Shown piece after piece: positions 45,900-62,731 of a stretch of 64,000 nucleotides of DNA. The notes under the pieces are model-generated. The model searched no databases and was not told where the DNA came from. It saw only the letters and a list, made by a program, of their open reading frames with translations. The stretch covers positions 62,001-126,000 of the forward strand of contig VXTM01000029.1 in assembly GCA_009837445.1 (NCBI GenBank), in the 5' to 3' direction. Within the stretch, counting starts at the first letter, position 1; every line of letters starts with the position of its first letter. The DNA comes from Acidimicrobiaceae bacterium. Lineage in GTDB: Bacteria > Actinomycetota > Acidimicrobiia > Acidimicrobiales > Aldehydirespiratoraceae. The position numbers were made by a program, and so were the translations under genes.

Positions 45900-46577
45900 A
45901 TGGCATCCATGGCCGACGACGCCGGTGCGGGCGACGAGCCCGTCGAAGGACGCCTGAGCGAGGCTCTTGCTTCGCCCGTCACCGCCGCGGAGTTGTGCCG
46001 GGTGGTGGGAAGCCGGGTCCGGGAGCTGCGCCAGGCGATGAACATGACGATGTCGACCTTCGCGGCGGAGGCCGACATCTCCCTGGGGATGCTCTCCAAG
46101 ATCGAGCACGGCCAGAGCGCTCCGAGCCTGTCGACGCTGGTGCGGCTGGCGGCGACGGCGCGGGTGCCGGTCACCGCGCTGTTCAGAGGCCTGGACGAGG
46201 AACACGACCTGGTGATCGTGCGGGCCGGAGAGGGCCACGAGATCCACCACCAGGGGGGCGGACCGGGGCGGCTCTACCAGGACCTCGGCACGCTGCGGGG
46301 CCCCAACCGGGTCATCGAGCCGATGATCACCACCATCACCGAGCCCGGCGGTGTGTTCCCCCTCTACCAGCACCCCGGCGTCGAGTTCCTGCATGTGCTG
46401 GAGGGGTCGCTCGACTACGGCTACGGCGGCACCGCCTACCGCCTGAACGCGGGAGACACCATGCAGATCCACGGCGAGGTGGCCCACGGTCCGGTCGAGC
46501 TGGTCGAGTTGCCAATCAGGTTCATCTCCATAAAGGTGTACCCGGCCACCGAACCGCGGACCGCAACAGGAGGATGA
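45900..46577 (+). CDS. XRE-type transcriptional regulator with C-terminal cupin
   Basis: 225 residues. Helix-turn-helix at about 37-92 (VGSRVRELRQAMNMTMSTFAAEADISLGMLSKIEHGQSAPSLSTL pattern) and a cupin sensor domain at about 115-215 (HPGVEFLHVLEGSLDY, LNAGDTMQIHGEVAHGP). Members regulate amino-acid, polyamine or osmolyte catabolism and bind a small effector in the cupin. Divergent from the phosphatase gene and first gene before the Amt/TMA island, so it is the best candidate local regulator. A CTAA-7-TTAG element lies in its upstream gap (45869-45883). Confidence 0.88.
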   Translation: MASMADDAGAGDEPVEGRLSEALASPVTAAELCRVVGSRVRELRQAMNMTMSTFAAEADISLGMLSKIEHGQSAPSLSTLVRLAATARVPVTALFRGLDEEHDLVIVRAGEGHEIHHQGGGPGRLYQDLGTLRGPNRVIEPMITTITEPGGVFPLYQHPGVEFLHVLEGSLDYGYGGTAYRLNAGDTMQIHGEVAHGPVELVELPIRFISIKVYPATEPRTATGG

Positions 46578-46623
46578 ACCCCATGGGCCTGCTGACTCTG
46601 TCCGCTGACACCAGGACGCGGCA

Positions 46624-46851
46624 GTGGGTCTGCTGATCGTCGTCGGCTGGATCAGCGATAACGAAGCAGTCCGCGGCAACCTCCTGCTCTGGATACTGCT
46701 GGCCGCCGCGGTGGGGCTCACGTTCTGGGAGTGCCGTGAACGCGGCTACCGGCCGAGAGCCGTGGTGTGGTGGCTGACATTCGTGGCCATCACCCACGTC
46801 GTGGGCTACATAGTCCTGCGATTCTTCGTGCGCCCGCCCGCCAAGAGTTAA
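46624..46851 (+). CDS. Small two-helix membrane protein (possibly 5'-frameshifted)
   Basis: 75 residues from GTG 46624. Two hydrophobic segments (GNLLLWILLAAAVGLTFW and VVWWLTFVAITHVVGYIVL) with a basic loop between. No Shine-Dalgarno lies near this GTG. Instead AGGAGG at 46568-46573 lies 10 bases before an ATG at 46584 in another frame, which codes MGLLTLSADTRTRQWVC and then stops exactly where this gene begins. One extra C near 46631 would join them into an 89-residue protein reading RQWVLLIVVGW, so a -1 frameshift or sequencing error is possible. Unknown function; lies upstream of Amt. Confidence 0.55.
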   Translation: MGLLIVVGWISDNEAVRGNLLLWILLAAAVGLTFWECRERGYRPRAVVWWLTFVAITHVVGYIVLRFFVRPPAKS

Positions 46852-46879
46852 CCCCCGCCGACCGCATAGGACACCGACG

Positions 46880-47260
46880 ATGCCTGAGGACCAGCCAGCC
46901 CGTTCGTTTCGTCGACCCCACGCCACCAAGAAGCGCACCACGCTGCTGGTGGCAGTGGGGGTGGTGCTGGCGTTCATCGTCCTCACCGGGAGATGCCGGG
47001 GAACCGACATCACCGAGGAGCAGGCCATCGCCACCGCCACCAGCGCGCTGGCGGCCGATCCCGGCGCCTTCGAGCCCGACAAGGTCGAGGCCAAAGTCCT
47101 GCGCCAGGGCTTCCCGCCCAGCCCGATGTGGATCGTGGTGCTCACGGTCCCGGACCCCGAGGGCGGCCCCGAGGACTTCCTCCGCCACGCGGCGGTGTGG
47201 GTGGACGCCGGCACCGGCGAGATCCGCCAGGTCAACGTCACCGAACCCGCCGAGGGCTAG
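46880..47260 (+). CDS. Membrane-anchored small protein with PepSY-like domain (tentative)
   Basis: 126 residues. A basic N-terminal tail, one membrane segment (LLVAVGVVLAFIVLTG), then an extracytoplasmic domain whose pattern ITEEQAIATATSALAADP...VWVDAGTGEIRQV resembles a single PepSY unit. Such domains often modulate neighbouring membrane enzymes or transporters. It lies between the two-helix protein and amt, 28 bases after the former. Confidence 0.55.
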   Translation: MPEDQPARSFRRPHATKKRTTLLVAVGVVLAFIVLTGRCRGTDITEEQAIATATSALAADPGAFEPDKVEAKVLRQGFPPSPMWIVVLTVPDPEGGPEDFLRHAAVWVDAGTGEIRQVNVTEPAEG

Positions 47261-47409
47261 CCAGACGCCGCCGGGCGACGCTGAACTCTCGACGGGCCGC
47301 AGCCGGATGTCCGGGCAGGCCCGAACAGGACCGTTTGCTTGGGCTGTGCTATTGTCGCCGGGGTCCGGCCGACCGGTCGGAGCGGACAAGAAGAATTGGG
47401 GGTGAGTCA

Positions 47410-48798
47410 ATGGACACATCTATTGTGTTCACCGAGGCTTACTACTTCTTCACCGTCGCGATCATGTGGCTGCTGCACGTGGGGTTCATGACCTACGAAG
47501 CCGGCGTCAGCCGCCGCAAGAACGTGATGTCGACGGCGATGAAGAACATCCTGACGATTGCCGTGGTGACACCGACGTTCTACTACGTCGGCTGGTACGT
47601 GTACTTCTGCATGCAGGAGGGCATCAAGTTCACAGTCTCAGCCGATGGAGCCAGCCCCGCAGGACTTGAGGGGCTCTATTTCTGCGGCGACCAGTACGGT
47701 CTGCCGTGGGACGGCTCCGCGGGACCGAACCTCGGCGACAACATCACCGGCGTCTTCTGGGCGGCCTTCGTGCTGTTCTCGTGGACGACCGGATCGATTA
47801 TGTCCGGCTCGGTGATCGAGCGCATCCGGATCTCGGCCTACCTCTGGCTGACCGCCCTGATGGGCGGCATCGTCTGGGTCGTCGCGGCGGCCTGGGGATG
47901 GAGCTACGGAGGCTGGCTGACGGTGCACTTCGGCTACCACGACTTCGCGGCCTCCATGGTCGTCCACGGCGTGGCCGGCATCTTCGCCCTCGGCGTGCTG
48001 TACAACCTCGGTCCGAGGATCGGGAGGTACGACAGCAACGGCGGCACGAGAACCTTCCAGCCCCACAACCTCCATCTCACGCTGATGGGGCTGATGATCA
48101 TCTTCACCGCCTTCTACGCCTTCTACGCGGCGTGCCTGGCCATCACGGCCGACACCACTCCGGGCTGGGCCAACATCTACTTCAACCCGGCCACGCTGTC
48201 GGCCATCACCTACACCATCACGATGGGCTTCGCGGGCGGCTTCGCCGGCGGCTACATCTTCAGCCGGGGAGACCCGTTCTGGACCATCTCCGGTGGTCTG
48301 GCCGGCGTGGTGGCTGTATCGGCGGGCGCCGACATCTACAGCCCCAACCTGGTGCTGCTCCTGGCCTTCTTCTCGGCCGGGCTGTGCTACCACATCGGTG
48401 GCTGGTTGGAGACCAAGGCCCGCGTCGACGACGCAGTCGGAGCGGTATCCGTTCACGGCATCATGGGAATGTGGGGCGCGTTGGCCGTCGGCATCTTCGC
48501 CGCCGGCTACCCGACCGGTCCTGCCGGCGTGGAGACCAGCTTCCAGGGCCAGCTCGTGGGCGTGACCGCGATATTCGCGCTGTCCTTCGTGACGGGCTAC
48601 GTGGCGTCCTGGATCCTCAAGAAGCTGAACCTGCTGAGGGTCCCGCCCGAGGTGGAGGTCGAGGGCCTCGACATGGCCGAGTTCGAGACGGACTTCTATC
48701 CGGAGTTCGGTCGAGCCGACGAGCCCATCACCCACGCCGACGGCACCCGGGAGTCCGCCGACGCCACGCTGCGGGCGGCTCTCAACGCCAACCGCTAG
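47410..48798 (+). CDS. amt: Amt-family ammonium (or methylated amine) transporter
   Basis: 462 residues from ATG 47410 (GGGGGTGAG upstream). Eleven or so membrane helices. Family features: YEAGVSRRKN in place of the usual EAGLVRxKN, D178 in GYHDFAASMVVH, and the twin pore histidines H186 and H349 (SVHGIMGMWGALA). The sequence is divergent, with several WTT/YFFT aromatic changes and an insertion at about residues 70-105 containing two Cys. The C-terminal tail is acidic. Sitting between a regulator and the tdm/tmm genes, it may import trimethylamine or methylammonium, or recover released ammonium; sequence alone does not decide. Confidence 0.88.
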   Translation: MDTSIVFTEAYYFFTVAIMWLLHVGFMTYEAGVSRRKNVMSTAMKNILTIAVVTPTFYYVGWYVYFCMQEGIKFTVSADGASPAGLEGLYFCGDQYGLPWDGSAGPNLGDNITGVFWAAFVLFSWTTGSIMSGSVIERIRISAYLWLTALMGGIVWVVAAAWGWSYGGWLTVHFGYHDFAASMVVHGVAGIFALGVLYNLGPRIGRYDSNGGTRTFQPHNLHLTLMGLMIIFTAFYAFYAACLAITADTTPGWANIYFNPATLSAITYTITMGFAGGFAGGYIFSRGDPFWTISGGLAGVVAVSAGADIYSPNLVLLLAFFSAGLCYHIGGWLETKARVDDAVGAVSVHGIMGMWGALAVGIFAAGYPTGPAGVETSFQGQLVGVTAIFALSFVTGYVASWILKKLNLLRVPPEVEVEGLDMAEFETDFYPEFGRADEPITHADGTRESADATLRAALNANR

Positions 48799-48802
48799 CC
48801 GG

Positions 48803-48934
48803 GTGTCCGCCTCATGGCTGCAGCTCATCCCTGCCTTAGCCGTCATGTACCTGGTGGTCATAGCCGCCGGGTACTGGGGCAAGCGCAGGCGGGCTCAGCA
48901 GGAGGCGCAGCGACCTGGTCGACAAGACCACTGA
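48803..48934 (+). CDS. 43-residue single-helix membrane microprotein downstream of Amt
   Basis: GTG start 4 bases after the amt stop, TGA at 48932-48934. One membrane helix (LIPALAVMYLVVIAAGYW) followed directly by a basic then Gln/Arg-rich tail (GKRRRAQQEAQ), predicting a cytosolic C-terminus. The tight spacing to amt and the two following microproteins make it likely to be real and possibly an accessory subunit. Family not recognised. Confidence 0.55.
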   Translation: MSASWLQLIPALAVMYLVVIAAGYWGKRRRAQQEAQRPGRQDH

Positions 48935-48960
48935 ACGTGTTCAGTACTAAGGAGGACTGA

Positions 48961-49185
48961 ATGAACACCTTCCCCTATGACAGCTGGGAAGCCGCCATCG
49001 AGGCAGCCGACGGCACCACCGGGTACTTCACCTGGGGGCCCGGCGGCAACACCGCCTCGTACGTTCTCGCCATCCTCGGGATCGCCGTGTCGGTGATCTC
49101 GGCGATCCTGGTGACGATGCGCGAGGACAAGCTGCTCAACCACGCAGCCGACCGGCTGGCCGACAAGTACAGCTCGGAGGACTGA
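48961..49185 (+). CDS. 74-residue single-helix membrane microprotein
   Basis: ATG 48961 with a perfect AAGGAGG at 48949-48955. The N-terminal half is acidic and aromatic (YDSWEAAIEAADGTTGYFTWGPGG), then a helix (ASYVLAILGIAVSVISAILV) and a charged C-terminal tail. A 6-base inverted repeat (CTGAAC-GT-GTTCAG, 48931-48944) spans the end of the previous gene and may shape its translation. Second of three tiny membrane genes after amt. Confidence 0.65.
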   Translation: MNTFPYDSWEAAIEAADGTTGYFTWGPGGNTASYVLAILGIAVSVISAILVTMREDKLLNHAADRLADKYSSED

Positions 49186-49186
49186 C

Positions 49187-49312
49187 ATGGCTCGACGCAA
49201 GCAAATCGAGTTCCAGGGAAAGCAGGGCCACGACAAGGGCATCGAGATGGCGTTCATCGTCTTCACGATCGCCTGCATCGTCTTCACGCTCATCGCAATC
49301 CAGGCCTTCTGA
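49187..49312 (+). CDS. 41-residue single-helix membrane microprotein
   Basis: ATG 49187, one base after the TGA of the 74-residue gene, with GGAGG 9 bases upstream inside that gene. A basic cytosolic N-terminus (MARRKQIEFQGKQGHDKG) precedes one long hydrophobic helix ending at the C-terminus (MAFIVFTIACIVFTLIAIQAF pattern). A strong hairpin 24 bases downstream ends the transcription unit. Unknown function; probably works with Amt. Confidence 0.65.
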   Translation: MARRKQIEFQGKQGHDKGIEMAFIVFTIACIVFTLIAIQAF

Positions 49313-49336
49313 CGCCTGACTCACCCCATTCAAGGC

Positions 49337-49377
49337 GGGCTGGCGCCGCGTCGTATATGGCGACGCGGCGCCAGCCC
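49337..49377 (+). terminator. Perfect 17-bp hairpin at the end of the amt unit
   Basis: Left arm 49337-49353 (GGGCTGGCGCCGCGTCG) and right arm 49361-49377 pair without mismatch around a 7-base TATATGG loop. No T-run follows, which is common for high-GC intrinsic terminators. It separates the Amt microprotein genes from the next gene. Confidence 0.8.
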
Positions 49378-49410
49378 CTGCTTGGTCTCCGACTGCCGTA
49401 GCCTTTGGCT

Positions 49411-49815: not shown

Positions 49816-49882
49816 AACTGCTTGCAGCCGTGAAGCCGCGCCGCGAGACTGACCGGAGCGCACGTACTCTCGGGAGGCGGCC

Positions 49883-52285
49883 ATGACGACGATCGCGCCG
49901 GAGAAGCCCCGGGTCCTGGTACCCGGGTTGATGATGCTCGGTCCCGGCGTGGAGCGCTACCGGGTGACCGGAGGCGGTGCGACCGTGCTGGCACTCGATG
50001 CGGGCGACGAGCTGGAGGTGGTCGACCCCGAGGGTCGGCAGCGGTGCGAACTGGTCGCCTTCGACGCCGGCGGGCGGTCCGACCCCGGACTGCTCCGCCC
50101 TGCCGGAGCCGCCGGTGCCGGCGGGAACGGCGGGAACCTCGGATCAGCGGCCGAGCCGGCCGCCCTGGACATCCTGTCGGCCGAACTCCGGGACGCCCGG
50201 CGGGTGCGGGCCGGTCTCCAGCGGGCCGGTATCGACTTGACGGCGGTGCGGGCGGCCACCCCGTTGAGGCTGCTCGACGGCGACACGCCCCCGGGCATCC
50301 GTGCCCGCATGGTGGCTGACGCCGACATCGCCTGCGTCGTGGCCGCTCCGGGCGAGGCCATGTCGGCCCACGGCGGCGCGCCCCCCACCGACCTGATCGC
50401 GTACGTGCACCGCCGCGACCCGATCTCCGGCGGCGACAAGCCCTTGCTGCCGGCGCCGCTGGCCGATCCCAGCCAGGACTTCATCATCAAGCACAGCACC
50501 GCCGTCGCCTACCAGGTGGCCAAGGGCGACTGGTTCCAGGTGGTCGACATCGAGGGCCGGCAGTGCTCGGACTTCCAGTGCTTCGCGGTGGCTGACCTCG
50601 AAGCGGGCGCAGATCTCTGCCTCGACGCCACCATCACCCGCACGCTCATGGGCGCCACCTGTCCCTCCCCCGGCCTGTACTCGAAGTTCTACAACGCCAG
50701 GATGCAGCCCCTTGTGGAGGTGATCCAGGACACCGTGGGCCGCCACGACACCTTCAACACCGCCTGCAACGCCCGCTACTACGAGGAGATGGGCTACCCC
50801 GGCCACATCAACTGCACCGACAACATCAACAACGAGCTCAACCCCTACGGCGTGGCCCGACGCCGGGGCTGGGAGGCGATCAACTTCTTCTACAACACCC
50901 AACTGGACGACGCCAACCAGATCTTTCTCGACGAGCCGTGGTCCCGGCCCGGCGACTACGTGCTGCTGCGAGCCCTGGAGGACTTGGTGTGCGTGTCCAC
51001 GTCATGCCCGGACGACATCGACGCGGCCAACGCCTGGACCCCCACCGACATCGCGGTGCGGGTCTACGGGGCCGCCAACCGGTTCAAGAAAGCGACGGCG
51101 ATCCGAATGACCGCAGACTCCGAGGCCCAGCTCACCTCCGAGACCGGGTTCCATCCCCGGACATCGGCCTTGACCCGCAGCTTCAGCGAGTACTGCGGCT
51201 ACTGGCTGGCCGACTCCTACACCGGGCACGGTCGCATTGAGGAGTACTGGGCCTGCCGGCAGGCCGCGGTGGCCATCGACCTGTCCCCGCTGCGCAAGTA
51301 CGAGGTGACCGGGCCCGAAGCCGAACTGCTGATGCAGACCTGCGTCACCCGCAACGTCCGCAAGCTGACCGACGGCCAGGTGTCGTACACAGCCATGTGC
51401 CTTGACACCGGCGGCATGATCGACGACGGCACCGTGTTCCGGCTCGGCCAGCAGAACTTCCGCTGGATAGGCGGGCAGCTCGGCTACAGCGGCGTGTGGC
51501 TGAGGGAGCAGGCTCAACGCCTGGGTCTGAAGGTCTGGGTCCGCAGCTCCACCGAGCAGCTCCACAACCTCCAGGTCCAGGGACCCAACAGCCGCAGGAT
51601 CCTCGAGCAGGTGATCTGGACCCGGCCCGACCAGCCGACGATCGCCGAGCTGGGATGGTTCCGCTTCACGATCGCCCGGATCGGCGACTTCGACGGCATA
51701 CCGCTGGTGGTCTCCCGCACCGGCTACACCGGCGAGCTCGGCTACGAGGTGTTCTGCCATCCCTCCGACGCCCCTGCGGTGTGGGACGCCATCTTCGAGG
51801 CCGGGGCCGATCACGGCCTGATCCCCATGGGGCTGGCCGCGCTCGACATCCTGCGCATCGAGTCGGGCCTGGTGTTCGCCGGCTACGAGTTCTGCGACCA
51901 GACGGACCCCTACGAGGCAGGGATCGGCTTCACCGTGCCGCTCAAGACCAAAGAGGACGACTTCATCGGCCGCGACGCCCTCCTCAAGCGCCGTGACAAC
52001 CCTCAACGGCGGCTGGTGGGGCTGGAGGTTGCCGGCGGCGAGCCCGCCGCCCACGGCGACGGCGTGTACGCCGGTCGCAACCAGGTCGGCGTCGTCACCA
52101 GCGCCGCCATCTCACCCATCCTGCGCAAGAACATCGCGCTGTGCCGCATGGCGGTGGAGCACGCCGAGATCGGGACCGAGGTGCAGGTCGGGAAGCTCGA
52201 CGGCCACGAGAAGCGGATCGAGGCCGAAGTCGTCCGGTACCCGTTCTACGACCCGGACAAGTCCCGGGTCCGCGGCCTGGCCTGA
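49883..52285 (+). CDS. tdm: Trimethylamine N-oxide demethylase (Tdm): DUF1989 plus GcvT-type domain
   Basis: 800 residues. Residues about 170-395 are a DUF1989 domain (KGDWFQVVDIEGRQCSDFQC, ATCPSPG, NCTDNINNELNPYG) with Cys228, Cys260, Cys295 and Cys311 as candidate metal ligands. Residues about 405-800 are a GcvT/aminomethyltransferase domain (TRSFSEYCGYWLADS, VSRTGYTGELGYEVFC, LDILRIESGLVFAGYE). This architecture and length match Tdm of methylotrophs and marine bacteria, which splits TMAO into dimethylamine and formaldehyde and delivers the one-carbon unit to tetrahydrofolate. The first 150 residues contain a partial repeat of the DUF1989 strand pattern. The tmm gene 4.3 kb away supports the assignment; other DUF1989-GcvT demethylases are the alternative. 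Confidence 0.85.
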   Translation: MTTIAPEKPRVLVPGLMMLGPGVERYRVTGGGATVLALDAGDELEVVDPEGRQRCELVAFDAGGRSDPGLLRPAGAAGAGGNGGNLGSAAEPAALDILSAELRDARRVRAGLQRAGIDLTAVRAATPLRLLDGDTPPGIRARMVADADIACVVAAPGEAMSAHGGAPPTDLIAYVHRRDPISGGDKPLLPAPLADPSQDFIIKHSTAVAYQVAKGDWFQVVDIEGRQCSDFQCFAVADLEAGADLCLDATITRTLMGATCPSPGLYSKFYNARMQPLVEVIQDTVGRHDTFNTACNARYYEEMGYPGHINCTDNINNELNPYGVARRRGWEAINFFYNTQLDDANQIFLDEPWSRPGDYVLLRALEDLVCVSTSCPDDIDAANAWTPTDIAVRVYGAANRFKKATAIRMTADSEAQLTSETGFHPRTSALTRSFSEYCGYWLADSYTGHGRIEEYWACRQAAVAIDLSPLRKYEVTGPEAELLMQTCVTRNVRKLTDGQVSYTAMCLDTGGMIDDGTVFRLGQQNFRWIGGQLGYSGVWLREQAQRLGLKVWVRSSTEQLHNLQVQGPNSRRILEQVIWTRPDQPTIAELGWFRFTIARIGDFDGIPLVVSRTGYTGELGYEVFCHPSDAPAVWDAIFEAGADHGLIPMGLAALDILRIESGLVFAGYEFCDQTDPYEAGIGFTVPLKTKEDDFIGRDALLKRRDNPQRRLVGLEVAGGEPAAHGDGVYAGRNQVGVVTSAAISPILRKNIALCRMAVEHAEIGTEVQVGKLDGHEKRIEAEVVRYPFYDPDKSRVRGLA

Positions 52286-52312
52286 TAGCGGCCCCGACAC
52301 TCCGGGCAGCGT

Positions 52313-53196
<884 letters not shown>

Positions 53197-53197
<1 letters not shown>

Positions 53198-54369
53198 CAG
53201 GCCGCGCTCCGTTCGGTGGCCGCGACCGCTCTCGTGCCCGCCTCGGCCAGCGAGTCGGCGGTTATAACTCCCACCTGGGCATCAGCCAGGATGCGCCGTC
53301 CCTCCGCGACGTTGGTGCCCGACAGCCGCACCACCACCGGAACCGAGGGATCAAGCTGCTGGAGGGCCTGGACCACGCCCTCGGCCACCCAGTCGCAGCG
53401 GTTGATGCCGGCGAAGATGTTCACCAGCACGGCCTCCACGTTCTCGTCGGACAGCACCAGCCGGAACGCCTTCAGCACGCGCTCTGGGGAGGCACCCCCG
53501 CCGATGTCGAGGAAGTTGGCCGGCTCGCCTCCCGCGTGCTTGATCATGTCCATGGTCGCCATGGCAAGACCGGCACCGTTGATGATGCAGCCGATGTTCC
53601 CTTCGAGCCCCACGTAGCTGAGTCCCCGGTCGACGGCCGTGCGCTCCCGGGGGTCCTCCTGGGACTTGTCCCGAAGCTCCGACACGTCCTGATGGCGGAA
53701 CAGGGCGTTGTCGTCGAAAGTCATCTTGGCGTCCAGCGCCACCAGGCGGCCGTCGGCGGTGACCGCCAGCGGGTTGATCTCCAGCATGGTGGCGTCGAGC
53801 TCACCGAAGATCCGGTAGCAGCCGGTCATCATCTGGACCGCTTGGGGCACGAGGCTCGCATCGAGCCCCACCGCGAAGGCAATCTCGCGGGCCTCGAACG
53901 CCTGGAGCCCGACGGCCGGCTCGACGTTGACGCGCACCACGGCTGCCGGGTCGCGGGCCGCGATCTCCTCGATGGCCATTCCGCCCTCGGCCGAGGCCAC
54001 CACCATCACCCGCTCGGCCGACCGGTCGAGCACGTACCCCAGATAGATCTCACTCACGGCCGATACGGCCGCCTCCACGTAGAGCCGGTACACGCCCCTG
54101 CCCCGCTCGCCGGTCTGGTTGGTCACCAGCCGCTTGCCGAGGAGGTCGTCGGCCGCCTCCCACACCTCGCGCTCGTCGCCGCAGAGCTTGATGCCGCCGG
54201 CCTGCCCCCGGGCCCCGGAGTGGATCTGAGCCTTGACCACCCACTGCTCCCCGCCGATCTCCGAAGCCCGGTAGGTGGCCTGCTCAGGGCTGTAGGCCAG
54301 GCCTCCCTCCGGTATGGCCACGCCGTAGTCGGCCAGTATGGCTTTGGCCTGGTACTCGTGAATCTCCAT
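53197..54369 (-). CDS. mtkA: Malate-CoA ligase (malate thiokinase), beta subunit
   Basis: 390 residues. ATP-grasp domain at the N-terminus ([38 protein letters not shown]) and the CoA-ligase domain at about 245-385 ([51 protein letters not shown]). AAGGAGGGG lies 5 bases before the ATG. It pairs with MtkB encoded immediately downstream, and is preceded by the frameshifted malyl-CoA lyase gene, the order mcl-mtkA-mtkB being consistent with one serine-cycle operon. Confidence 0.87.
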
Positions 54370-54396: not shown

Positions 54397-55340
54397 CTAT
54401 GGACCCCGAGATGCGATGGCCTCGGCCGTCTCGACGACGTTGCGGGCCATCCGGGCCGACGCGGCGTCGATCATTCGCCCGTCGAGCTGGGCCGCGCCGC
54501 GGCCGGCCGCGGCAGCCTCCTCCAGCGCCTGAAGCACCCGGCGGGCCTGATCCACCTCCGAGGGTGGTGGAGTGAACACGTCGTTGGCCAGGTCGACCTG
54601 CGAGGGGTGGATGGCCCACTTGCCGTCGTAGCCGAGGGCCGCGGCCCGGCGAGCGCCGGCCGTGAAGGAGTCCGGATCGCCGAAGTCCCCGAACGGCCCG
54701 TCGATGGCCCGCAGCCCGTTGGCCCGCAGGCCACCAGCAGGCGCGACAGCGCCGAGTGCCACTGGTCGCCCGGATAGTCGGGGTTGAGCCCCCCGATCGT
54801 GATGGTCCGGGCCCGGCACGAGGCCGCGTAGTCGGCCACGCCGAAGTGGAGCGCCTCCAGCCGGGAGCTCGAAGCAGCCACTGCCTCGACGTTGGCCATG
54901 CCCAGCGCGGTCTCGATCAGCGCCTCCACGCCGATGCGGTGGGTCAACCCCTCTGCCGTCTCGATCTGGGTCAGCAGGGCGTCCACGGTGTAGATGTCGC
55001 CGGGCACGCCCACCTTGGGGACGAGGATCGTGTCGACGTGCGCCCCGGCCCGCTCCACCACGTCGATGAGGTCGCGGTACATGTAGTGAGTGTCGAGCCC
55101 GTTGATCCGCACCGACACTGTCTTGCCAGCCCCTCGCCAATCGATGTCGCCCAGAGCGGCGATCACGTTGTGCCGGGCGGTTTCCTTCTCGTCGGGCGAC
55201 ACCGCGTCCTCAAGATCGAGGAACACATAGTCGGCCCGGCTCGCAGCCGCCTTCTCGAACAACTCGGGACGCGACCCGGGCACGGCCAGCTCGCTGCGGT
55301 GCAACCTGCGCCTCGCTTCGGTGATCTGGAGGTGACTCAT
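54397..55340 (-). pseudogene. mcl: Malyl-CoA/citramalyl-CoA lyase (HpcH/HpaI family), frameshifted
   Basis: Two frames together code one full CoA-ester lyase of about 315 residues. The N-terminal part runs from ATG 55340 (RSELAVPGSRPELFEKAA, DYVFLDLEDAVSPDEK, ILVPKVG, EALIETALG, HFGVADYAAS, PDYPGDQWHSALSRLLVAC). Near 54727-54730 the homology jumps frame and continues as RANGLRAIDGPFGDFGDPDSF, then GYDGKWAIHPSQVDLAND, ending at 54397. One missing C (minus strand TGCGGGCC where TGCCGGGCC would keep frame) explains it. Without the tail the enzyme would be incomplete. The intact partners mtkA and mtkB, and sga next door, make a sequencing or assembly error as likely as true gene decay. Function: malyl-CoA to acetyl-CoA plus glyoxylate. 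Confidence 0.85.
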
Positions 55341-55433: not shown

Positions 55434-56540
55434 TTGCGGACTAAGACCCAGCACACCGAGCGGATCCTCATGGGCCCGGGCCCATCGAATCCCTACCCCG
55501 AGGTCATCGAGGCCTTCACCCGTCCGGTGATGGGTCACCTCGATGGCGAGTTCCTCGCGCTGCTCGACGAGACCTGCGACCGTCTGCGGGCCGTGTTCCG
55601 GACCGGCAACGCCCTCACCTTCCCGATATCGGGTACGGGCTCGGCGGGGATGGAGGCGGCCTTCGTGAACGTGATCTCCGGCGGCGACACCGTCGTGGTG
55701 GGGGTCAACGGCGTGTTCGGTGAGCGCATGTGCGACGTCGCCGGCCGGTGCGGAGCCAACGTCGTACGGGTGGACGCCGAATGGGGCACGCCGCTCGACC
55801 CGCAGCGAATCCTGGACGCCCACCCCGCCCCGGACGTGATCGCAGTGGTCCACGCGGAGACCTCCACCGGAGTGCGCAACGACCTAGCCGAACTGGGCTC
55901 GGCCAAGGGAGACGCCCTGCTTCTCGCCGACTGCGTCACCTCGCTCGGCGGCATCGACGTGCGCGTCGATGACTGGGCCGTCGACATCGCTTACAGCGGA
56001 ACCCAGAAGTGCCTGGGAGTGCCGCCGGGACTGGCACCGATCAGCGTCTCGCCCCGGGCGGTTGAACGACTGCGTTGCCAGCCATCGTCCTGGTACTTCG
56101 ACATGGGGATGATCGCCAACTACGTCTCCGGCGCGGGGGCGAGGGCCTACCACCACACCGCGCCGATCTCGATGATCTATGCGCTCCACGCAGGACTGGG
56201 CGTGGTGCTCGACGAAGGGCTCAATGCGGCCCACGCACGGCACCGGGAGTGCGGGGAGACTCTCCAAGCCGGACTCGAGGCCCGTGGACTCACGCTGCTG
56301 GCCCCCGCCGGTGCCCGCCTGCCTCAGCTCACCTCCGTTCGAGTGCCCGAGTGGCGGCTCCCAACCAACACGAGCGAGGCCGACATCCGTCGAACGTTGC
56401 TCGATTGCTACGGCATTGAGATCGGTGGCGGGCTGGGTGTCTTGGCGGGCAAGTGCTGGCGCATCGGTTGCATGGGCCACACCGCCCGAACTCGTAACGT
56501 GACTCTGATTCTGGCCGCTCTCGACGAGGTGCTGGCCTAG
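55434..56540 (+). CDS. sga: Serine-glyoxylate aminotransferase (class V aminotransferase)
   Basis: 368 residues, TTG start with AAGGG just upstream. Begins with the family pattern RILMGPGPSNPYPEVIEAFTRPVMGHLD; PLP-binding Lys192 in DIAYSGTQKCLGVPPGL; and GGGLGVLAGKCWRIGCMGH near the end, all typical of the SGA/AGXT group. It transfers the amino group of serine (or alanine) to glyoxylate, giving glycine and hydroxypyruvate, thereby recycling the C1 acceptor of the serine cycle. Divergent from the mcl-mtkA-mtkB genes and sharing their regulatory gap. Alanine-glyoxylate transaminase activity is also possible. Confidence 0.87.
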   Translation: MRTKTQHTERILMGPGPSNPYPEVIEAFTRPVMGHLDGEFLALLDETCDRLRAVFRTGNALTFPISGTGSAGMEAAFVNVISGGDTVVVGVNGVFGERMCDVAGRCGANVVRVDAEWGTPLDPQRILDAHPAPDVIAVVHAETSTGVRNDLAELGSAKGDALLLADCVTSLGGIDVRVDDWAVDIAYSGTQKCLGVPPGLAPISVSPRAVERLRCQPSSWYFDMGMIANYVSGAGARAYHHTAPISMIYALHAGLGVVLDEGLNAAHARHRECGETLQAGLEARGLTLLAPAGARLPQLTSVRVPEWRLPTNTSEADIRRTLLDCYGIEIGGGLGVLAGKCWRIGCMGHTARTRNVTLILAALDEVLA

Positions 56541-56603
56541 CGGCTAGCTTCGCTCCGCGCGGCGTGCGAGACTGCGCTAAGTTTTACTCTCACTATCGAT
56601 ACA

Positions 56604-56612: not shown

Positions 56613-56627
56613 AGGGGGGATTCGATC

Positions 56628-57974
56628 ATGTCACGAGTAGCTGTCATCGGTGCCGGGCCGTGCGGGCTGTCGCAGCTGCACGCCTTCGCCAGCGATTCGG
56701 GGGCAGGCAGCCCGTCGGCACCCGAGATCGTCTGCTATGAGAAGCAGTCCGACTGGGGCGGGCTCTGGAACTACGACTGGCGCACCGGGCTCGACGAGCA
56801 CGGCGAGCCCTGCCACGCCAGCATGTACCGATACCTCTGGTCGAACGGCCCCAAGGAGTGCCTGGAGTTCGCCGACTACGGCTTCGAGGAGCACTTCGGC
56901 AAGCCCATCGCGTCGTTCCCACCCCGCGAGGTGCTGTACGACTACATCATCGGCCGGGCTACCCGCAGCGGCTTCCGCGACCAGATCCGGTTCAGCCACG
57001 CCGTGCGCCGTGTCAGCCGCTCAGCCAGCGGCGGTGGATTCACGGTCACAGCCCACGATCAGGCCAACGACGTCGACACCAGCGAGGACTTCGACTACGT
57101 GGTGGTGTCCACCGGGCACTTCTCCATTCCCAACATGCCCCACTACCCCGGCTACGAGGCCTTCGGCGGCACCCTGCTGCACGCCCACGACTTCCGCGAC
57201 GCAGTACAGTTCGCCGACCGGAACGTGCTCGTGATCGGGTCGAGCTACTCGGCCGAGGACATCGCCTCCCAGCTCTGGAAGTACGGGGCCCGCGCGGTGG
57301 TGTGCACGTCGCGCAGCGGCCCCATGGGCTTCGACTGGCCCGACGGCATCATCGAGAAGCCCATCCTGACCCATGTTGAGGGCCGCACCGTGCACTTCGC
57401 CGACGGCTCGACTACCGAGGTGGATGCCATCGTCTCGTGCACCGGCTACCTGCACCACTTCCCGTTCATCGACGACGAGCTGCGCCTGGTGACCGCCAAC
57501 CGCCTGGCCACGTCGATGCTGTACCGGGGCGTGGTGTTCCAGCCCGAGAACCGGATCCTGTACCTGGGGATGCAGGACCAGTGGTACACGTTCAATATGT
57601 TCGACGCGCAGGCCTGGTACGCCCGTGACGTGATCCTGGGCCGTATCGAGTTGCCCGACGCGGCCGAGCAGGCCCGCTGGATAGAGGCATCCCAGGCCGA
57701 GGAGGACGCGCTGGCTGACGACTACGCGTGCATCGACTTCCAGGGGGCCTACACCCAGGACCTGGTGGACCAGACCGACTACCCGGACTTCAACACGCCG
57801 CTGGTCAACAAGATGTTCTACGACTGGAAGAAGCACAAGAAGCAGTCGATCATCGGGTACCGCGACCACGGGCACACCTCGCCGCTGACGGGCACGGTGG
57901 CGCCCACCCACCACACGTCGTGGGAGGACGCGCTGGACGACTCGCTGGAGTCCTTCCTGGCCGACTCGGCCTGA
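56628..57974 (+). CDS. tmm: Trimethylamine monooxygenase (Tmm), flavin-containing monooxygenase
   Basis: 448 residues, ATG with AGGGGGG 9 bases upstream. FAD site VIGAGPCGLSQL at the N-terminus; NADPH site VIGSSYSAEDIASQ (about residue 206); FMO-type stretch LLHAHDFRD. Extended segments MYRYLWSNGPKECLEFADY, FGKPIASFPPREVL, MQDQWYTFNMFDAQAWYARDV and TGTVAPTHHTSWEDALDDSLE match, as I recall them, bacterial Tmm of Methylocella and marine bacteria nearly word for word. It oxidises trimethylamine to TMAO using NADPH and O2, feeding Tdm encoded upstream. It can also oxidise other tertiary amines and sulfides. Confidence 0.93.
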   Translation: MSRVAVIGAGPCGLSQLHAFASDSGAGSPSAPEIVCYEKQSDWGGLWNYDWRTGLDEHGEPCHASMYRYLWSNGPKECLEFADYGFEEHFGKPIASFPPREVLYDYIIGRATRSGFRDQIRFSHAVRRVSRSASGGGFTVTAHDQANDVDTSEDFDYVVVSTGHFSIPNMPHYPGYEAFGGTLLHAHDFRDAVQFADRNVLVIGSSYSAEDIASQLWKYGARAVVCTSRSGPMGFDWPDGIIEKPILTHVEGRTVHFADGSTTEVDAIVSCTGYLHHFPFIDDELRLVTANRLATSMLYRGVVFQPENRILYLGMQDQWYTFNMFDAQAWYARDVILGRIELPDAAEQARWIEASQAEEDALADDYACIDFQGAYTQDLVDQTDYPDFNTPLVNKMFYDWKKHKKQSIIGYRDHGHTSPLTGTVAPTHHTSWEDALDDSLESFLADSA

Positions 57975-57998
57975 CCCGCCGCCAGCGCCGGGGCCGCC

Positions 57999-59255
57999 AT
58001 GGACGATGTGATCATCGTCGGGGGCGGCATCGGCGGCCTGACGCTGGCCCTCATGCTGCACGAGCGGGGCATCAGTTGCCGCGTGTACGAGGCCGCGCCG
58101 CAGATCCAACCCATCGGCGTGGGAATCAGCCTGCTGCCCCATGCCAGCAAGGAACTCGGGCTCCTGGGTCTCACCGACGCGCTGAGCGAGGTGGCCGTGA
58201 CCACCCGGGAGTCGTGCTTCTTCAACCGGTTCGGGCAGTTCGTGTACTCCGAGCCCGTGGGCCGCTACGCCGGCTACGACTGGCCCCAGTTCCAGATCCA
58301 CCGGGGCGACCTCCAGCAGGTGCTCCACCGGGCCTACCTCGACCGGGTGGTCGATGGCGCAGAGCGGGTACTGACCGGTCACCGCTGCACCGGCGCCGGC
58401 TCGGACGCCCGGGGTGCGGTGGCCCATTTCGTCGACTCCAGCACCGGCGCAGCCCTGCCGCCGGCGCGGGGAGCGGCGGTGATCGGCTGCGACGGGATCC
58501 ACTCGGCGGTGCGGCGGCAGTTCTTCGGTGACGAGGGCCCGCCCGTCTACTCGGGTGTGAACATGTGGCGGGGCACCACCGTCTGGGAGCCGTTCCTCAG
58601 CGGGTCCACCTACCTGCGGGCCGGCTGGCTGACGGTGGGCAAGATGGTGATCTACCCGATCCGGCACAACGTCGACGGCCGGGGCCGGCAGCTGGTGAAC
58701 TGGGTGGCCGAGGTGCAGACCGACTCCTACAGCGAGCAGGACTGGAACCGGGTCGGCCGCCTCGAGGACTTCCACCACGTCTTCGCCGACTGGACCTTCG
58801 ACTGGCTCGACGTGGCCGGGCTGATCCGGGGCGCGGAGCAGATTCTGGAGTACCCGATGGTGGACCGTGATCCGCTGCCGAGATGGACCCACGACCGGGT
58901 GACCCTGCTGGGCGACGCCGCCCATCCCATGTACCCTCGGGGCTCCAACGGCGCCGGCCAGGCCATCCTCGATGCCCGGGCCCTGGCCGACTGCCTGCAG
59001 TCGGCCGGATCGATACCCGAAGCCTTGGAGTGCTACGAGGACCAGCGGCTCTCGGCCACGGCGGCGGTGGTGCAGGCCAGCCGGTCGGCACCACCCGACG
59101 TGATCCTCAAGACGGTCCACGAGCGCACCGGGAACCGGCCCTTCGAGCGCATCACCGATGTGATCTCCGCGGCCGAGATGGCGGCTCTGAACGACAGCTA
59201 CAAGCGGGTGGCCGGGTACCACCGCGAGTCCCTCTCCAGCCGCACCCACCCCTGA
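57999..59255 (+). CDS. FAD-dependent monooxygenase, salicylate-hydroxylase-like
   Basis: 418 residues of the group A flavoprotein monooxygenases. FAD-binding GGGIGGLTLALML near residue 8, the DG motif VIGCDGIHSAVR near 165, and the second FAD motif GDAAHPMYPRGSNGAGQAILDA near 306. It starts 24 bases after tmm and so is likely cotranscribed. The substrate is unknown; proximity suggests oxidation of an amine or of a cosubstrate in the same pathway, though most of this family act on aromatic rings. Confidence 0.85.
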   Translation: MDDVIIVGGGIGGLTLALMLHERGISCRVYEAAPQIQPIGVGISLLPHASKELGLLGLTDALSEVAVTTRESCFFNRFGQFVYSEPVGRYAGYDWPQFQIHRGDLQQVLHRAYLDRVVDGAERVLTGHRCTGAGSDARGAVAHFVDSSTGAALPPARGAAVIGCDGIHSAVRRQFFGDEGPPVYSGVNMWRGTTVWEPFLSGSTYLRAGWLTVGKMVIYPIRHNVDGRGRQLVNWVAEVQTDSYSEQDWNRVGRLEDFHHVFADWTFDWLDVAGLIRGAEQILEYPMVDRDPLPRWTHDRVTLLGDAAHPMYPRGSNGAGQAILDARALADCLQSAGSIPEALECYEDQRLSATAAVVQASRSAPPDVILKTVHERTGNRPFERITDVISAAEMAALNDSYKRVAGYHRESLSSRTHP

Positions 59256-59311
59256 ACCCACCGGCCGATCGGGATTTGGAACCATCGACGGGGCGTGGTT
59301 GGCTAGACCGC

Positions 59312-61498
59312 ATGCGTGCCGGTTCCCTTGAGATCGATCCTGCCCTCTACGAGTTCATCGCAGTCGAGGCCCTGCCGGGAACCGGCGTGCAGATCGACGA
59401 GTTCTGGAGCGCGCTCCAGTCAATCCTGGTCGACCTCGGTCCCCGCAACGCCGCTCTGCTAGCCCGGCGCGACGATCTGCAGTCCCAGATCGACGACTGG
59501 CATCGGGCGGCCCGCACCGAGGGCCGGGGCCACGACGGTGACGCCTACGCCAACTTCCTGCGCGACATCGGGTACCTGCGTTACATGGACGGCTCGGTCA
59601 CGGCCACGACGGCCAACGTTGATCCCGAGATCGCCGAGGTGGCCGGACCGCAGCTGGTGGTGCCCCTCGACAACGCCCGATACGCGCTGAATGCGGCCAA
59701 CGCCCGCTGGGGAAGCCTCTACGACGCGCTGTACGGGACCGATGTGATCAGCGAGTCGGACGGATGCAGCCGCGGAGGCGCCTACAACCCGATCAGGGGC
59801 GACCGGGTCGTCGCTTCGGGGCGGGAGTTCCTCGACACCCATTTCACCCTCGACTCGGCGAGCCACCTGTGGGCCACCGGGTACAGCGTGCGGGATGGAA
59901 CCCTGCAGGTGCGCAGCGGCGACGGCACCGTCAGCGCGCTGCTGCGCCCGGAGCAGTTCGTCGGCTACATCGGTGCCAGCGACGCTCCCACTTCAATCCT
60001 GCTCCGCAAGAACGGCCTGCACTGCGAGTTGCGCATCGACGCCGACCATCCCGTAGGACGGCGGGACCACGCCGGCGTCTTCGACATACGGCTCGAGTCC
60101 GCGATCACCACCATCATGGACTTCGAGGACTCCGTGTCGGCGGTGGACGCCGACGACAAGGTGTCGGTCTACCGGAACTGGCTCGGGCTAATGCGAGGCA
60201 GCCTGAAGACCACGTTCGTACGCGACGGGACGGCCGTGAACCGGTCGCTGAACGGTGATCGCAGCTTCACCGGCCCGGGCGGCGAGCCGCTGAAGCTGCC
60301 GGGCCGGTCACTGATGCTGGTCCGCAACGTGGGGCCCCACCTGAGCACCGACATGGTGACGCTCGACGGCGAGCCGGTGTGCGAGACCATGGTCGACGCC
60401 ATGGTGACTGCGCTGTGCGCCCTCCATGACTTGCGGGGCATGGGGCGGGTGGACGGCCAGTCCATCCGCAACTCGGCAGCGGGGTCGGTCTACATCGTCA
60501 AGCCCAAGATGCACGGCCCCGACGAGGTCGCGCTGGCCTGCGAGCTATTCAGCCGGGTGGAGGACGCCCTCGGCCTGGTGCAGCGCACCCTCAAGATGGG
60601 GATCATGGACGAGGAGCGCCGCACGTCGCTCGGCCTCAAGGAGTGCATCTGGAGAGCCCGCGACCGGGTGGTGTTCATCAACACCGGCTTCCTGGACCGC
60701 ACCGGCGACGAGATCCACACCGACATGGAGGCCGGACCGGTGATCCCCAAGGCCGAGATGAGGGCCGCGGCCTGGCTCGGCGCCTACGAGAACTCCAACG
60801 TCGACGCCGGGCTGGCCTGCGGCCTGCGGGGGCGGGCCCAGATCGGCAAGGGGATGTGGACCATGCCGGCCGAGATGGCGGCCATGGCCAAGGCCAAGAT
60901 CCAGCACCCGATCGCGGGGGCCAGCACTGCGTGGGTGCCGTCGCCCACCGCGGCGACGCTCCACGCCATGCACTACTTCCTGGTGGACGTGGCCGACCGC
61001 CAGCGTGACCTCACCGAGCGCACCCCGGCCCGCCTCGCCAGCCTCATTGAGATCCCGGTGTTGCCACCGGGCCGCGAGCTCGGTCCGGGCGAGATCCAGC
61101 GCGAGCTGGACAACAACGTCCAGGGCATCCTCGGATACCTGGTCCGCTGGGTGGGCCAGGGCGTGGGATGCTCTACCGTGCCCGACATCGGTGACACCGG
61201 GCTCATGGAGGATCTGGCCACCCTGCGCATCTCCAGCCAGCACATCGCCAACTGGCAGCACCATGGACTCATCTCCGCCGATCAGGTACGCGAGACGATG
61301 CGACGCATGGCCAACCTCGTCGACCAGCAGAACGCGGGTGACCCCGGCTACGAGCCCATGGCTCCCGAATACGACTCCAGCATCCCGTTCCAAGCGGCAC
61401 TGGAGCTCGTCTTCTCCGCTCGGGAGGAGCCCAACGGCTACACCGAGCGCGTACTCCGCTCCCACCGGCGAGCTGCTAAGTCCCTCTCAGGGAGCTGA
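59312..61498 (+). CDS. glcB: Malate synthase G
   Basis: 728 residues from ATG 59312, the usual length of the monomeric G isoform. Family stretches: TTIMDFEDSVSAVDADDKV (Mg-binding Asp/Glu), SLMLVRNVGPHL, VYIVKPKMHGPDE, RTSLGLKECIWRARDRVVFINTGFLDRTGDE, GRAQIGKGMW and EYDSSIPFQAALELVF. It condenses glyoxylate with acetyl-CoA to malate. In this island it could drain glyoxylate from the Mcl reaction and so return it to malate. It begins 56 bases after the flavoprotein gene. Confidence 0.93.
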   Translation: MRAGSLEIDPALYEFIAVEALPGTGVQIDEFWSALQSILVDLGPRNAALLARRDDLQSQIDDWHRAARTEGRGHDGDAYANFLRDIGYLRYMDGSVTATTANVDPEIAEVAGPQLVVPLDNARYALNAANARWGSLYDALYGTDVISESDGCSRGGAYNPIRGDRVVASGREFLDTHFTLDSASHLWATGYSVRDGTLQVRSGDGTVSALLRPEQFVGYIGASDAPTSILLRKNGLHCELRIDADHPVGRRDHAGVFDIRLESAITTIMDFEDSVSAVDADDKVSVYRNWLGLMRGSLKTTFVRDGTAVNRSLNGDRSFTGPGGEPLKLPGRSLMLVRNVGPHLSTDMVTLDGEPVCETMVDAMVTALCALHDLRGMGRVDGQSIRNSAAGSVYIVKPKMHGPDEVALACELFSRVEDALGLVQRTLKMGIMDEERRTSLGLKECIWRARDRVVFINTGFLDRTGDEIHTDMEAGPVIPKAEMRAAAWLGAYENSNVDAGLACGLRGRAQIGKGMWTMPAEMAAMAKAKIQHPIAGASTAWVPSPTAATLHAMHYFLVDVADRQRDLTERTPARLASLIEIPVLPPGRELGPGEIQRELDNNVQGILGYLVRWVGQGVGCSTVPDIGDTGLMEDLATLRISSQHIANWQHHGLISADQVRETMRRMANLVDQQNAGDPGYEPMAPEYDSSIPFQAALELVFSAREEPNGYTERVLRSHRRAAKSLSGS

Positions 61499-61519
61499 AC
61501 ACCGGTACCATCCGCGGCT

Positions 61520-62731
61520 ATGCGGACGCCGCCCGCCGAGGTCGATGTCATCGTGATAGGCGCCGGTGTGTCGGGCGCCAGCATCGGTTACCAGCTCGCC
61601 CGGCATTCTGACCTCCGGGTAGCTGTGGTCGACGCCCGCTCGCCCGTCGGGGGGATCTCGGGCCGAACCTTCGGCCAGATCCGTCAGCACTACTCGAACG
61701 AGCTCCTGGTGCGCATGGCGCTTAGGGGCTTCCATTGCCTCCGGAACTGGGACGCCGAGGTGGGTTACGGCGATCCCGGGTACGTCCGGTTCGGCTACAT
61801 GCTGATCGTCACCGCCGACCAGATCGACGGCTTGCGACGAAACGTCGAGCTGGGCCAGCGCCTGGGCGTGGACACCCGGGTCGTCGGCCCCGACGAGATA
61901 GCGGCCATCGAGCCGCTGGTTAATGCCGCCGGCCTGGCGGGCGGCGCCTACGAGCCGGAGGGCGGGTACATCGACGTCACGAAGATGGTGCTGAGCTGGC
62001 TCGGCGCCGCGACCGGGCACGGCGCGCGCGTGCTGACCCCGCTCGGAGTGCAGGAGATCCTCGTCACCGACGGAGCGGTGGCGGGAGTGGCCACCGACTC
62101 GGGAGAGATCAAGGCTCCGGTGGTCGTGGTGGCCACCGGGGCATGGGCGCCCGACCTGCTCGATCCGATCGGAGTGCGGCTTCCTATCGAGCGACGGCGC
62201 CTCGACATGGTCACGCTCGAGCAGGAGCCCGGGGCCCGCGCCCTGCATACCTGCATCACCGACGGCAACTCCAACCTGGTGATCCGCCCCGACATGGGTC
62301 GCCGCATCATCGCGGTGGCCTACCCGCCGGAGATGCCCGAGGTTGACGATCCGCTGGCTGACGCCCCGCCGGAGGCTCACCGTGAGCACTGGGTGCGCCT
62401 CGAGAAGGCGCTGTCGGAGCGGCTCCCGGCGCTGACCGTCGCCGGGATCGACTCGACCATCAGCGGGGCCTACGACATCACGCCGGACTACCACCCGATC
62501 CTGGGGTGGGCCTCCGAGCTCGCCGACGTCGCCGGGCTGTACCTCGCTGTCGGGCTGTCCGGGCACGGGCTCAAGCTGTCCCCGTGCATCGGCGAGGTCG
62601 TAGCCGCCCAGGTGCTCGGCGTCGAACAGGTCGGCAGCGCGCCCCGGATCGACGCCGGAGCGCTCAGACCGAGTCGGTTCGCCGACGGCGATCTGATGCA
62701 CCTAACCTACGGTCCGAGTGCCCGGGCCTAA
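61520..62731 (+). CDS. FAD-dependent oxidoreductase (DadA/sarcosine-oxidase-beta-like)
   Basis: 403 residues of the DAO family. FAD dinucleotide fold VIVIGAGVSGASIGYQLA near residue 10, SGRTFGQIRQHYSNEL, the middle substrate cap, and the C-terminal LAVGLSGHGLKLSPCIGEVVA. Members oxidise secondary or tertiary amino acids such as sarcosine, dimethylglycine and N-methylated amino acids, releasing formaldehyde or an imine. Its position 21 bases after malate synthase in a methylamine/C1 island favours a demethylating role (inference). Confidence 0.82.
   Translation: MRTPPAEVDVIVIGAGVSGASIGYQLARHSDLRVAVVDARSPVGGISGRTFGQIRQHYSNELLVRMALRGFHCLRNWDAEVGYGDPGYVRFGYMLIVTADQIDGLRRNVELGQRLGVDTRVVGPDEIAAIEPLVNAAGLAGGAYEPEGGYIDVTKMVLSWLGAATGHGARVLTPLGVQEILVTDGAVAGVATDSGEIKAPVVVVATGAWAPDLLDPIGVRLPIERRRLDMVTLEQEPGARALHTCITDGNSNLVIRPDMGRRIIAVAYPPEMPEVDDPLADAPPEAHREHWVRLEKALSERLPALTVAGIDSTISGAYDITPDYHPILGWASELADVAGLYLAVGLSGHGLKLSPCIGEVVAAQVLGVEQVGSAPRIDAGALRPSRFADGDLMHLTYGPSARA

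Follow-up and report, generated by a model that had tools for sequence, protein, structure and literature searches.

How does an actinobacterium that appears able to break down trimethylamine (TMA) deal with the dimethylamine that would result? The question is raised by a 64,000-nucleotide stretch, hereafter the window, of contig VXTM01000029.1 in the Acidimicrobiaceae bacterium assembly GCA_009837445.1 (positions 62,001 to 126,000 of the forward strand). Its source genome (3.9 Mb in 52 contigs, 93.8% complete) is denoted G000; labels with G and L refer to the genomes and loci of our survey and those with C to contigs, such that the window corresponds to G000:C31:62001-126000. By homology, the genes between window positions 45900 and 62731 make up the upper portion of an Acidimicrobiia locus for trimethylamine catabolism. 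Eight kilobases beyond the window end, on the minus strand, lies a further operon (C31:134113-140581), here termed the b-operon, and our view, which leans toward probable, is that it takes the place of DmmABC in the breakdown of dimethylamine, perhaps with gamma-glutamyl-dimethylamide and N,N-dimethylglutamate as intermediates.

The first two steps are encoded within the window itself. Tmm, trimethylamine monooxygenase (56628..57974, plus strand), scores 728.1 bits against the NCBIfam equivalog NF058570 (cut-off, 675) and matches PDB 8b2d at 637 bits, and Tdm, a trimethylamine N-oxide (TMAO) demethylase that joins DUF1989 to a GcvT-like part (49883..52285, plus strand), scores 1167.6 bits against NF053776 (cut-off, 1100) near full length (residues 21 to 797 of 800) and matches PDB 9q59 at 871 bits. 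With both proteins over curated equivalog cut-offs and the structural matches in agreement, the identification of Tmm and Tdm in an earlier note on this DNA stands. Counterparts of all Zn/Fe ligands are present in the window Tdm (C295, C311, C375, H308, and D378); in the characterized enzyme these are the Zn cysteines C263, C279, and C343, plus H276 and D346 (PMC12560246, accessible text). The same text has the characterized Tdm liberating formaldehyde with no requirement for tetrahydrofolate, which leaves unsupported the earlier note's proposal that Tdm passes its one-carbon (C1) unit to folate. By homology, Tmm would convert TMA to TMAO, and Tdm would convert TMAO to dimethylamine and formaldehyde.

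The host assignment was examined with Tdm loci from named genomes (the best 80 of 189 confirmed loci, to which all locus counts refer, with flanks of at most 10 kb on either side). Eighteen of these named loci encode a Tdm that is 81 to 94% identical to that of the window, in a similar gene order, and the titles of all 18 of these closest loci name Acidimicrobiia, Acidimicrobiales, Acidimicrobiaceae, or Microthrixaceae. In a 90-row Tdm tree, the window falls inside an Acidimicrobiia clade in which four Gammaproteobacteria are also nested. The best-known Tdm and Tmm are proteobacterial, which would suit a misbinned proteobacterial contig; however, the many named Acidimicrobiia metagenome-assembled genomes (MAGs) with the same sequence and order, and the nesting of the window Tdm among them, rule out this exceedingly improbable explanation and agree with the actinobacterial host proposed in the earlier note, whose gene positions were also recovered as given. 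We consider the gene content and lineage of the region to be sound with high confidence. A second actinomycetal clade lies elsewhere on the tree, and this, together with the nested Gammaproteobacteria, suggests that tdm has probably been transferred between phyla more than once. From bin names only (APA, RHO3, and COS4), we infer a sponge origin for the nearest MAGs; these names fit sponge hosts named in PMC8163846, in whose accessible text the bins themselves are unnamed.

Dimethylamine is where the locus departs from the known system. In Ruegeria pomeroyi, the TMA/TMAO cluster is described as containing tmm, tdm, dmmDABC, gmaS-mgsABC, and mgdABCD (PMC13390433 and PMC5520151, each in part). 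The Acidimicrobiia resemble this cluster in possessing Tmm, Tdm, a GmaS-like glutamine synthetase-type protein (GS) with MgsABC, and, in G263, a TmoX-like binding protein; they differ in that no DmmA was found and the b-operon is present instead, in their XRE-cupin regulator and actinobacterial host, and in an optional set of mtk, mcl, and sgat genes. The earlier note had raised the matter of dimethylamine genes: DmmA (PF11927) was not found in the source genome at its 93.8% completeness, and a different operon, the b-operon, lies past the window. Nor was DmmA found in any of 19 further Acidimicrobiia genomes, a set in which the GS of the b-operon (b-GS) was not sought by protein.

The b-operon encodes, in order, b-GS (GS-III-like), MgsA, MgsB, MgsC, a small protein, and a SoxB-like FAD enzyme. 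The series MgsA–MgsB–MgsC–small protein is maintained in all 16 b-operons compared (in one of these, L194, the GS is present but was uncalled by the gene caller), and b-GS or MgsC occurs within the fetched flanks of 31 of the 80 Tdm loci. In L036 and L038, tdm, tmm, and a FAD oxidase gene are immediately followed by the b-operon; the oxidase, a FAD-dependent amine oxidase of the DAO family (61520..62731, plus strand, in the window; PF01266, 206 bits), there directly precedes the b-operon, which is convergent with it. The small protein exists in two subtypes with a common NWLED...FDR motif. In G263, a binding protein matching PDB 4xz6 (403.6 bits), which we take to be TmoX, and its ABC partners are encoded directly before b-GS. 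In Proteobacteria, a protein of ~190 to 200 aa with the motif FLGWQCR is encoded near the b-operon (L071:8718-9329, L078:18310-18906, L086:9239-9802, L190, and L202), and its L071 copy has no Pfam match.

Relative to the N-methylglutamate pathway (GmaS, MgsABC, and MgdABCD), the b-operon has a ligase with the GmaS catalytic residues and MgsA, MgsB, and MgsC in the same order; it differs in the separate clade and 30% identity of its GS to GmaS, in its extra small protein, in its rarity alongside DmmA, and, in the operon of the source genome, in a SoxB-like enzyme without SoxA. A second GS, here called a-type, is also present in the source genome: a search for gmaS and mgs genes, a point raised by the earlier note, recovered on contig C15 a GmaS-like GS over the TIGR03105 cut-off (556.5 bits; 40% identical to the GmaS of Methylopila, with Ala at the position of Q175), alongside mgsA, mgsB, and an mgsC that is incomplete at the contig end. 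A SoxA-type protein with SoxB- and SoxG-like neighbors is encoded on contig C3, and in a near relative (G396) the a-type GS/mgs and SoxA groups both fit into about 22 kb of a single contig. In that relative, an 819-aa FAD plus GcvT-like protein (L172:14437-16896) is encoded directly after the a-type mgsC and might be an N-methylglutamate dehydrogenase.

b-GS reaches only 322.9 bits against TIGR03105 (cut-off, 469.6) and, at 30% identity to Methylopila GmaS, belongs to a separate clade in which all 38 of its rows group together (support, 100/99). It was located by protein identity because TIGR03105 scores alone fail to separate it from a third GS type of Thioglobus. As an observation in its own right, a third GS type occurs in the gammaproteobacterium G411 directly before mgsA-mgsB-mgsC and gmaS (L143:11106-16885). 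Published work assigns the catalytic roles in GmaS to Asp177, Glu186, and Arg312, with Trp300 where ammonia-using GS has Glu and Ala48 where it has Asp (PMC7948447, accessible text). Across 38 distinct b-GS proteins from the fetched loci (from which the b-like GS of G208 and G226 were left out), Q175, D177, E179, E186, N188, Y147, R312, W300, and the pocket Lys of GmaS are kept in 38/38, and the ammonia-GS Asp and Glu are missing from all, with Val at position 48. Since the GmaS residues are kept and the ammonia-GS Asp and Glu are lost, b-GS resembles an alkylamine ligase; the residues do not reveal its amine, methylamine being among the candidates. The two excluded proteins (44 to 47% identity) form a sister clade with Glu at 175 and Phe at 300.

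The b-operon co-occurs with Tdm. Among 396 Actinomycetota, b-GS occurs in 13 genomes, including all 10 with a Tdm over the cut-off (Fisher, 1.2e-17). One of these 10, G221, has a divergent b-GS of only 52% identity, yet b-type MgsA, MgsB, MgsC, and the small protein are encoded alongside it; G208 and G317 carry b-GS with neither Tdm nor DmmA, and G226 has a 44% paralog and a weak HODM match. The only Tdm-like genome without b-GS in this sample is G338, whose Tdm-like protein (1031 bits) is under the cut-off and which has DmmA (212.9 bits) and a DmmD-like gene near tdm. In a sample of 321 Alphaproteobacteria, Tdm was detected at E 1e-200 in 13 (of which 11 exceed the cut-off), and b-GS is found in 7 of these 13 versus 6 of the 308 others (Fisher, 4e-8); six of the 13 have the b-operon only, five DmmA only, G763 both, and G682 neither. 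Forty-two of the 49 Tdm-positive genomes behind the survey loci possess b-GS (at least 62% identity in the best piece). Those without it are G439, G463, G464, G445, G413, G414, and G444 (the last with a 44% paralog only), and strong DmmA (at least 234 bits) occurs in exactly six of these seven, G463 being the exception, while six b-bearing genomes have weaker HODM matches (best piece, 69 to 191 bits).

In aggregate, counted without overlap (G441 and G469 occurred in two sets), 71 Tdm-positive genomes divide into 56 with the b-operon only, 12 with DmmA only, 1 with both, and 2 with neither (Fisher, 9e-11; relatedness is ignored in this and the other Fisher tests). The two evenly drawn samples alone give 16 b only, 6 DmmA only, 1 both, and 1 neither (Fisher, 3.5e-4), and a Tdm tree covering 59 of the genomes has four changes of the b/DmmA label, at least three of them forced. 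The six strong DmmA loci examined (L106, L162 to L164, L184, and L185) encode proteins 60 to 88% identical to Methylopila DmmA; homologues of the two open reading frames (ORFs) preceding the Methylopila gene stand beside DmmA in 6/6 of these loci, and DmmD is found in 3/6. The ORFs near DmmA are presumably DmmB, DmmC, and DmmD. The one weak HODM locus examined (L108) encodes a protein with 28% identity to Methylopila DmmA.

Distribution, linkage, and residues thus point to a role for the b-operon in dimethylamine metabolism, at a strength that lies between tentative and just probable. From the genes, their order, their co-occurrence with Tdm, the near-exclusion of DmmA, and the active-site residues, all of which are observed, we infer every substrate and intermediate of the following scheme. 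The GS-like ligase of the b-operon would join dimethylamine to glutamate, forming gamma-glutamyl-dimethylamide, which the MgsABC-like complex would convert to N,N-dimethylglutamate; a flavoenzyme would then take one methyl group off N,N-dimethylglutamate, and the N-methylglutamate so formed would enter the GmaS/MgsABC-linked pathway that the source genome also seems to carry.

Several observations weigh against this scheme. With regard to distribution, counting any HODM match over the Pfam cut-off as DmmA changes the tally to 50 b only, 12 DmmA only, 7 both, and 2 neither (Fisher, 2.8e-7); G763 has the b-operon as well as DmmA; G463 and G682 have neither, though as MAGs they are incomplete; and 49 of the 71 genomes were selected for likeness to the window Tdm. 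With regard to the operon itself, the SoxB-like gene is found inside the stretch for only 9 of the 16 b-operons (one at 41% identity) and its product is only distantly similar to known oxidases (dimethylglycine oxidase, 44 bits), the GS gene does not immediately precede mgsA in L197 (which is divergent) and L202, and the small protein lacks a Pfam match in the four copies scanned and yields a poor structure model (mean predicted local distance difference test score, 49.7). The ligase, moreover, has Ala for G231 and Asn for H237 of GmaS in 38/38 sequences and is variable at W189 and Y191.

Some of these counterpoints bear on a specific rival, in which the b-operon serves methylamine or another amine and dimethylamine is excreted or otherwise oxidized. 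The b-GS pocket is GmaS-like and, at position 175, more so than that of the source genome's own a-type GS: 12 of 15 proteins of the Acidimicrobiia a-type group, the own copy included, have Ala where b-GS keeps Gln, and as such b-GS could itself be the methylamine ligase. The b-operon also occurs without Tdm in eight genomes (six Alphaproteobacteria, G208, and G317). On the other hand, an operon for methylamine would be redundant, given that 48 of 52 Tdm-positive genomes encode an a-type GS exceeding the TIGR03105 cut-off, in the source genome beside a-type mgsABC, and the near-exclusion between the b-operon and DmmA would be left unexplained. We regard this rival as a credible minority possibility.

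The earlier note also linked TMA oxidation to a partial serine cycle. The genes concerned form a cassette between tdm and tmm, mtkB-mtkA-mcl-sgat, similar to the serine-cycle genes of methylotrophic Alphaproteobacteria such as Methylopila (MtkAB, Mcl, and an SGAT-type aminotransferase). Of the putative malate-CoA ligase, the beta subunit MtkA (53197..54369, minus strand) is over the NF010647 cut-off (664.5 bits versus 604), but the adjoining MtkB-like alpha subunit (52313..53197, minus strand), which shares 66% identity with its Methylopila counterpart, clears only models for the alpha subunit of succinate-CoA ligase. The CitE-like malyl-CoA lyase gene (54397..55340, minus strand) is present as claimed, and its product is 60 to 67% identical to Methylopila Mcl, but the gene is frameshifted in the assembly, with the N-terminal part in frame 54471-55340 and the C-terminal part overlapping it in frame 54397-55140. 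Since mcl is intact in all seven cassette-bearing Acidimicrobiia relatives (one frame, 312 to 330 aa), the split in the window would stem from misassembly or from a lesion acquired recently.

The fourth gene (55434..56540, plus strand) encodes a class V aminotransferase, called a serine-glyoxylate aminotransferase (SGAT) in the earlier note. It is indeed of the alanine-glyoxylate aminotransferase (AGT)/SGAT/PucG-like type (PDB 1vjo, 304.7 bits), with alanine- and ureidoglycine-glyoxylate enzymes as its closest structural relatives in PDB, but it passes no NCBIfam cut-off, and for this reason serine is only its presumed amino donor. Its top NCBIfam match is BhcA, at 202 bits versus a cut-off of 650; this distance, and the structural affinity to AGT and PucG, led us to reject a beta-hydroxyaspartate cycle, for which the aminotransferase alone was examined.

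Besides the window, 7 of 38 Acidimicrobiia loci (L028, L030, L031, L041, L042, L056, and L077) have the full cassette between tdm and tmm, some of the 38 being incomplete, and G263 (L011) has mtkA and mtkB beside tdm. It was not found between tdm and tmm, the only place examined, in L026, L027, L029, L032, L033, and L036 to L038, and the two genes are direct neighbors in other Acidimicrobiia loci. On a Tdm tree of 23 rows, the presence of the cassette requires five changes, at least four of them forced, a count equally low in 46 of 500 shuffles. A search for the GckA-type glycerate kinase (MOFRL; PF05161), a gene that the earlier note had named, was negative in 21 of 21 Acidimicrobiia genome entries, G000 included (G263 and G402, which share coordinates and Tdm, are probably one genome counted under two labels), and positive in one Methylopila genome.

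The cassette is therefore real but optional, and half of a serine cycle is present: mtkAB, mcl, and sgat are next to the TMA genes, whereas a complete canonical cycle is unsupported. The cassette would convert malate to acetyl-CoA and glyoxylate, the latter would accept an amino group to give glycine, and glycine would capture C1 as serine. Assimilation of TMA-derived C1 through the serine cycle has in its favor the seven loci that share the arrangement with the window and the Methylopila locus L103, in which mcl and mtkAB lie within about 10 kb of tmm-tdm in a genome with the GckA-type kinase; against it stand, besides the negative kinase search and the close relatives whose tdm and tmm enclose no cassette, the frameshifted mcl and the adjoining malate synthase G (GlcB; 59312..61498, plus strand; 1099 bits versus the NF002825 cut-off of 565, in agreement with the earlier note), which would oppose the cycle. 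This reading of the region is weak and, as an account of C1 assimilation, improbable; a bypass via serine dehydratase would be possible. The cassette might instead serve general glycine/glyoxylate metabolism, with malate converted to glyoxylate and then to glycine and with no part in C1 assimilation. The aminotransferase's structural neighbors fit that role, as do loci in which SGAT and GlcB (L046) or SGAT (L048) stand beside tdm and tmm without mtk or mcl, but the malate-CoA ligase equivalog passed by MtkA and the resemblance of Mcl to that of a methylotroph do not, and we consider this role somewhat unlikely.

The region has three further genes. A PuuR-like XRE-cupin regulator (45900..46577, plus strand), far under the NF007408 cut-off at 38 bits, has homologues (at least 60% identity) in 29 of 80 Tdm loci, exclusively of Acidimicrobiia. 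An Amt-type ammonium/amine transporter (47416..48798, plus strand), with homologues at the same threshold in 27 of 80, fits TIGR00836, but at 230.7 bits is under the cut-off of 343.3, which qualifies the earlier note's assignment to Amt. A FAD-dependent monooxygenase (57999..59255, plus strand; NF005720, 565.9 bits versus a cut-off of 400), with homologues (at least 60%) in 7 of 80 loci, was missing from the earlier list.

Elsewhere in the window, Mch, a methenyl-tetrahydromethanopterin (H4MPT) cyclohydrolase (22735-23673, plus strand; TIGR03120, 271.9 bits versus a cut-off of 228.8; PF02289, 328 bits), is an H4MPT-type C1 gene in an Acidimicrobiia genome and is accompanied by two short-chain dehydrogenases/reductases and a luciferase-like protein (24410-25387). 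Four Rieske-type oxygenases (window 17710-18879 and 33278-34516; C31:53055-54368 and C31:55792-56973) weakly resemble glycine betaine monooxygenase (90 to 119 bits versus a cut-off of 670), the third being nearer to benzoate dioxygenase (261 bits versus a cut-off of 781). Close to that benzoate dioxygenase-like protein, some 9 kb ahead of the window, C31:52345-52983 (minus strand) encodes another DUF1989 protein, this one free-standing (139.9 bits). An open frame of 3174 aa spans window positions 4449-13970 (plus strand), and its start resembles a ketosynthase domain.

How new is this arrangement? The earlier note had held the linkage of TMA oxidation to serine-cycle genes in an actinobacterium to be undescribed, a claim that survives in narrower form: the accessible texts report Tmm and N-methylglutamate genes in Arthrobacter and Mycobacterium (PMC5023230) and TMA oxidation together with the serine cycle in Paracoccus (PMC4543880). 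The Acidimicrobiia share actinobacterial Tmm and N-methylglutamate genes with the former, in which, unlike here, no Tdm-like gene is reported near the TMA monooxygenase genes (PMC5023230). Unlike the serine cycle of Methylopila, the cassette is optional and comes with no detectable GckA-type kinase. In the accessible portions of the open-license literature, including work on gamma-glutamyl-dimethylamide and dimethylglutamate, dimethylamine routes, homarine, actinobacterial tmm/tdm, methylotrophy, and sponges, no description of the b-operon was found.

The finding bears on a gap that has already been pointed out. According to the accessible text of Lidbury et al. (2017; PMC5520151), many marine bacteria form dimethylamine from TMAO by Tdm yet lack dmmDABC, with SAR11 and further abundant marine groups among those without it; this was termed a "metabolic bottleneck" through which dimethylamine could escape to the atmosphere. 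A later paper on SAR11 strain HTCC1062 and TMAO has suggested an unknown isoenzyme of DmmDABC (PMC8918994, in part). We tentatively propose, while rating it as somewhat short of an even chance, that many Tdm-bearing bacteria have their missing, DmmABC-independent route for dimethylamine in the b-operon, running through the dimethylamide, dimethylglutamate, and demethylation by a flavoenzyme in Acidimicrobiia, other Actinomycetota, Thioglobus-type Gammaproteobacteria, and several Alphaproteobacteria. Being conserved, frequent in genomes that lack DmmA, and seldom found together with it, the operon constitutes a concrete, clonable candidate for the dimethylamine step, which opens the matter to testing. 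The Acidimicrobiia also join the likely users of TMA and TMAO. If the proposal is true, the b-operon would remove the proposed marine methylamine bottleneck in these groups.

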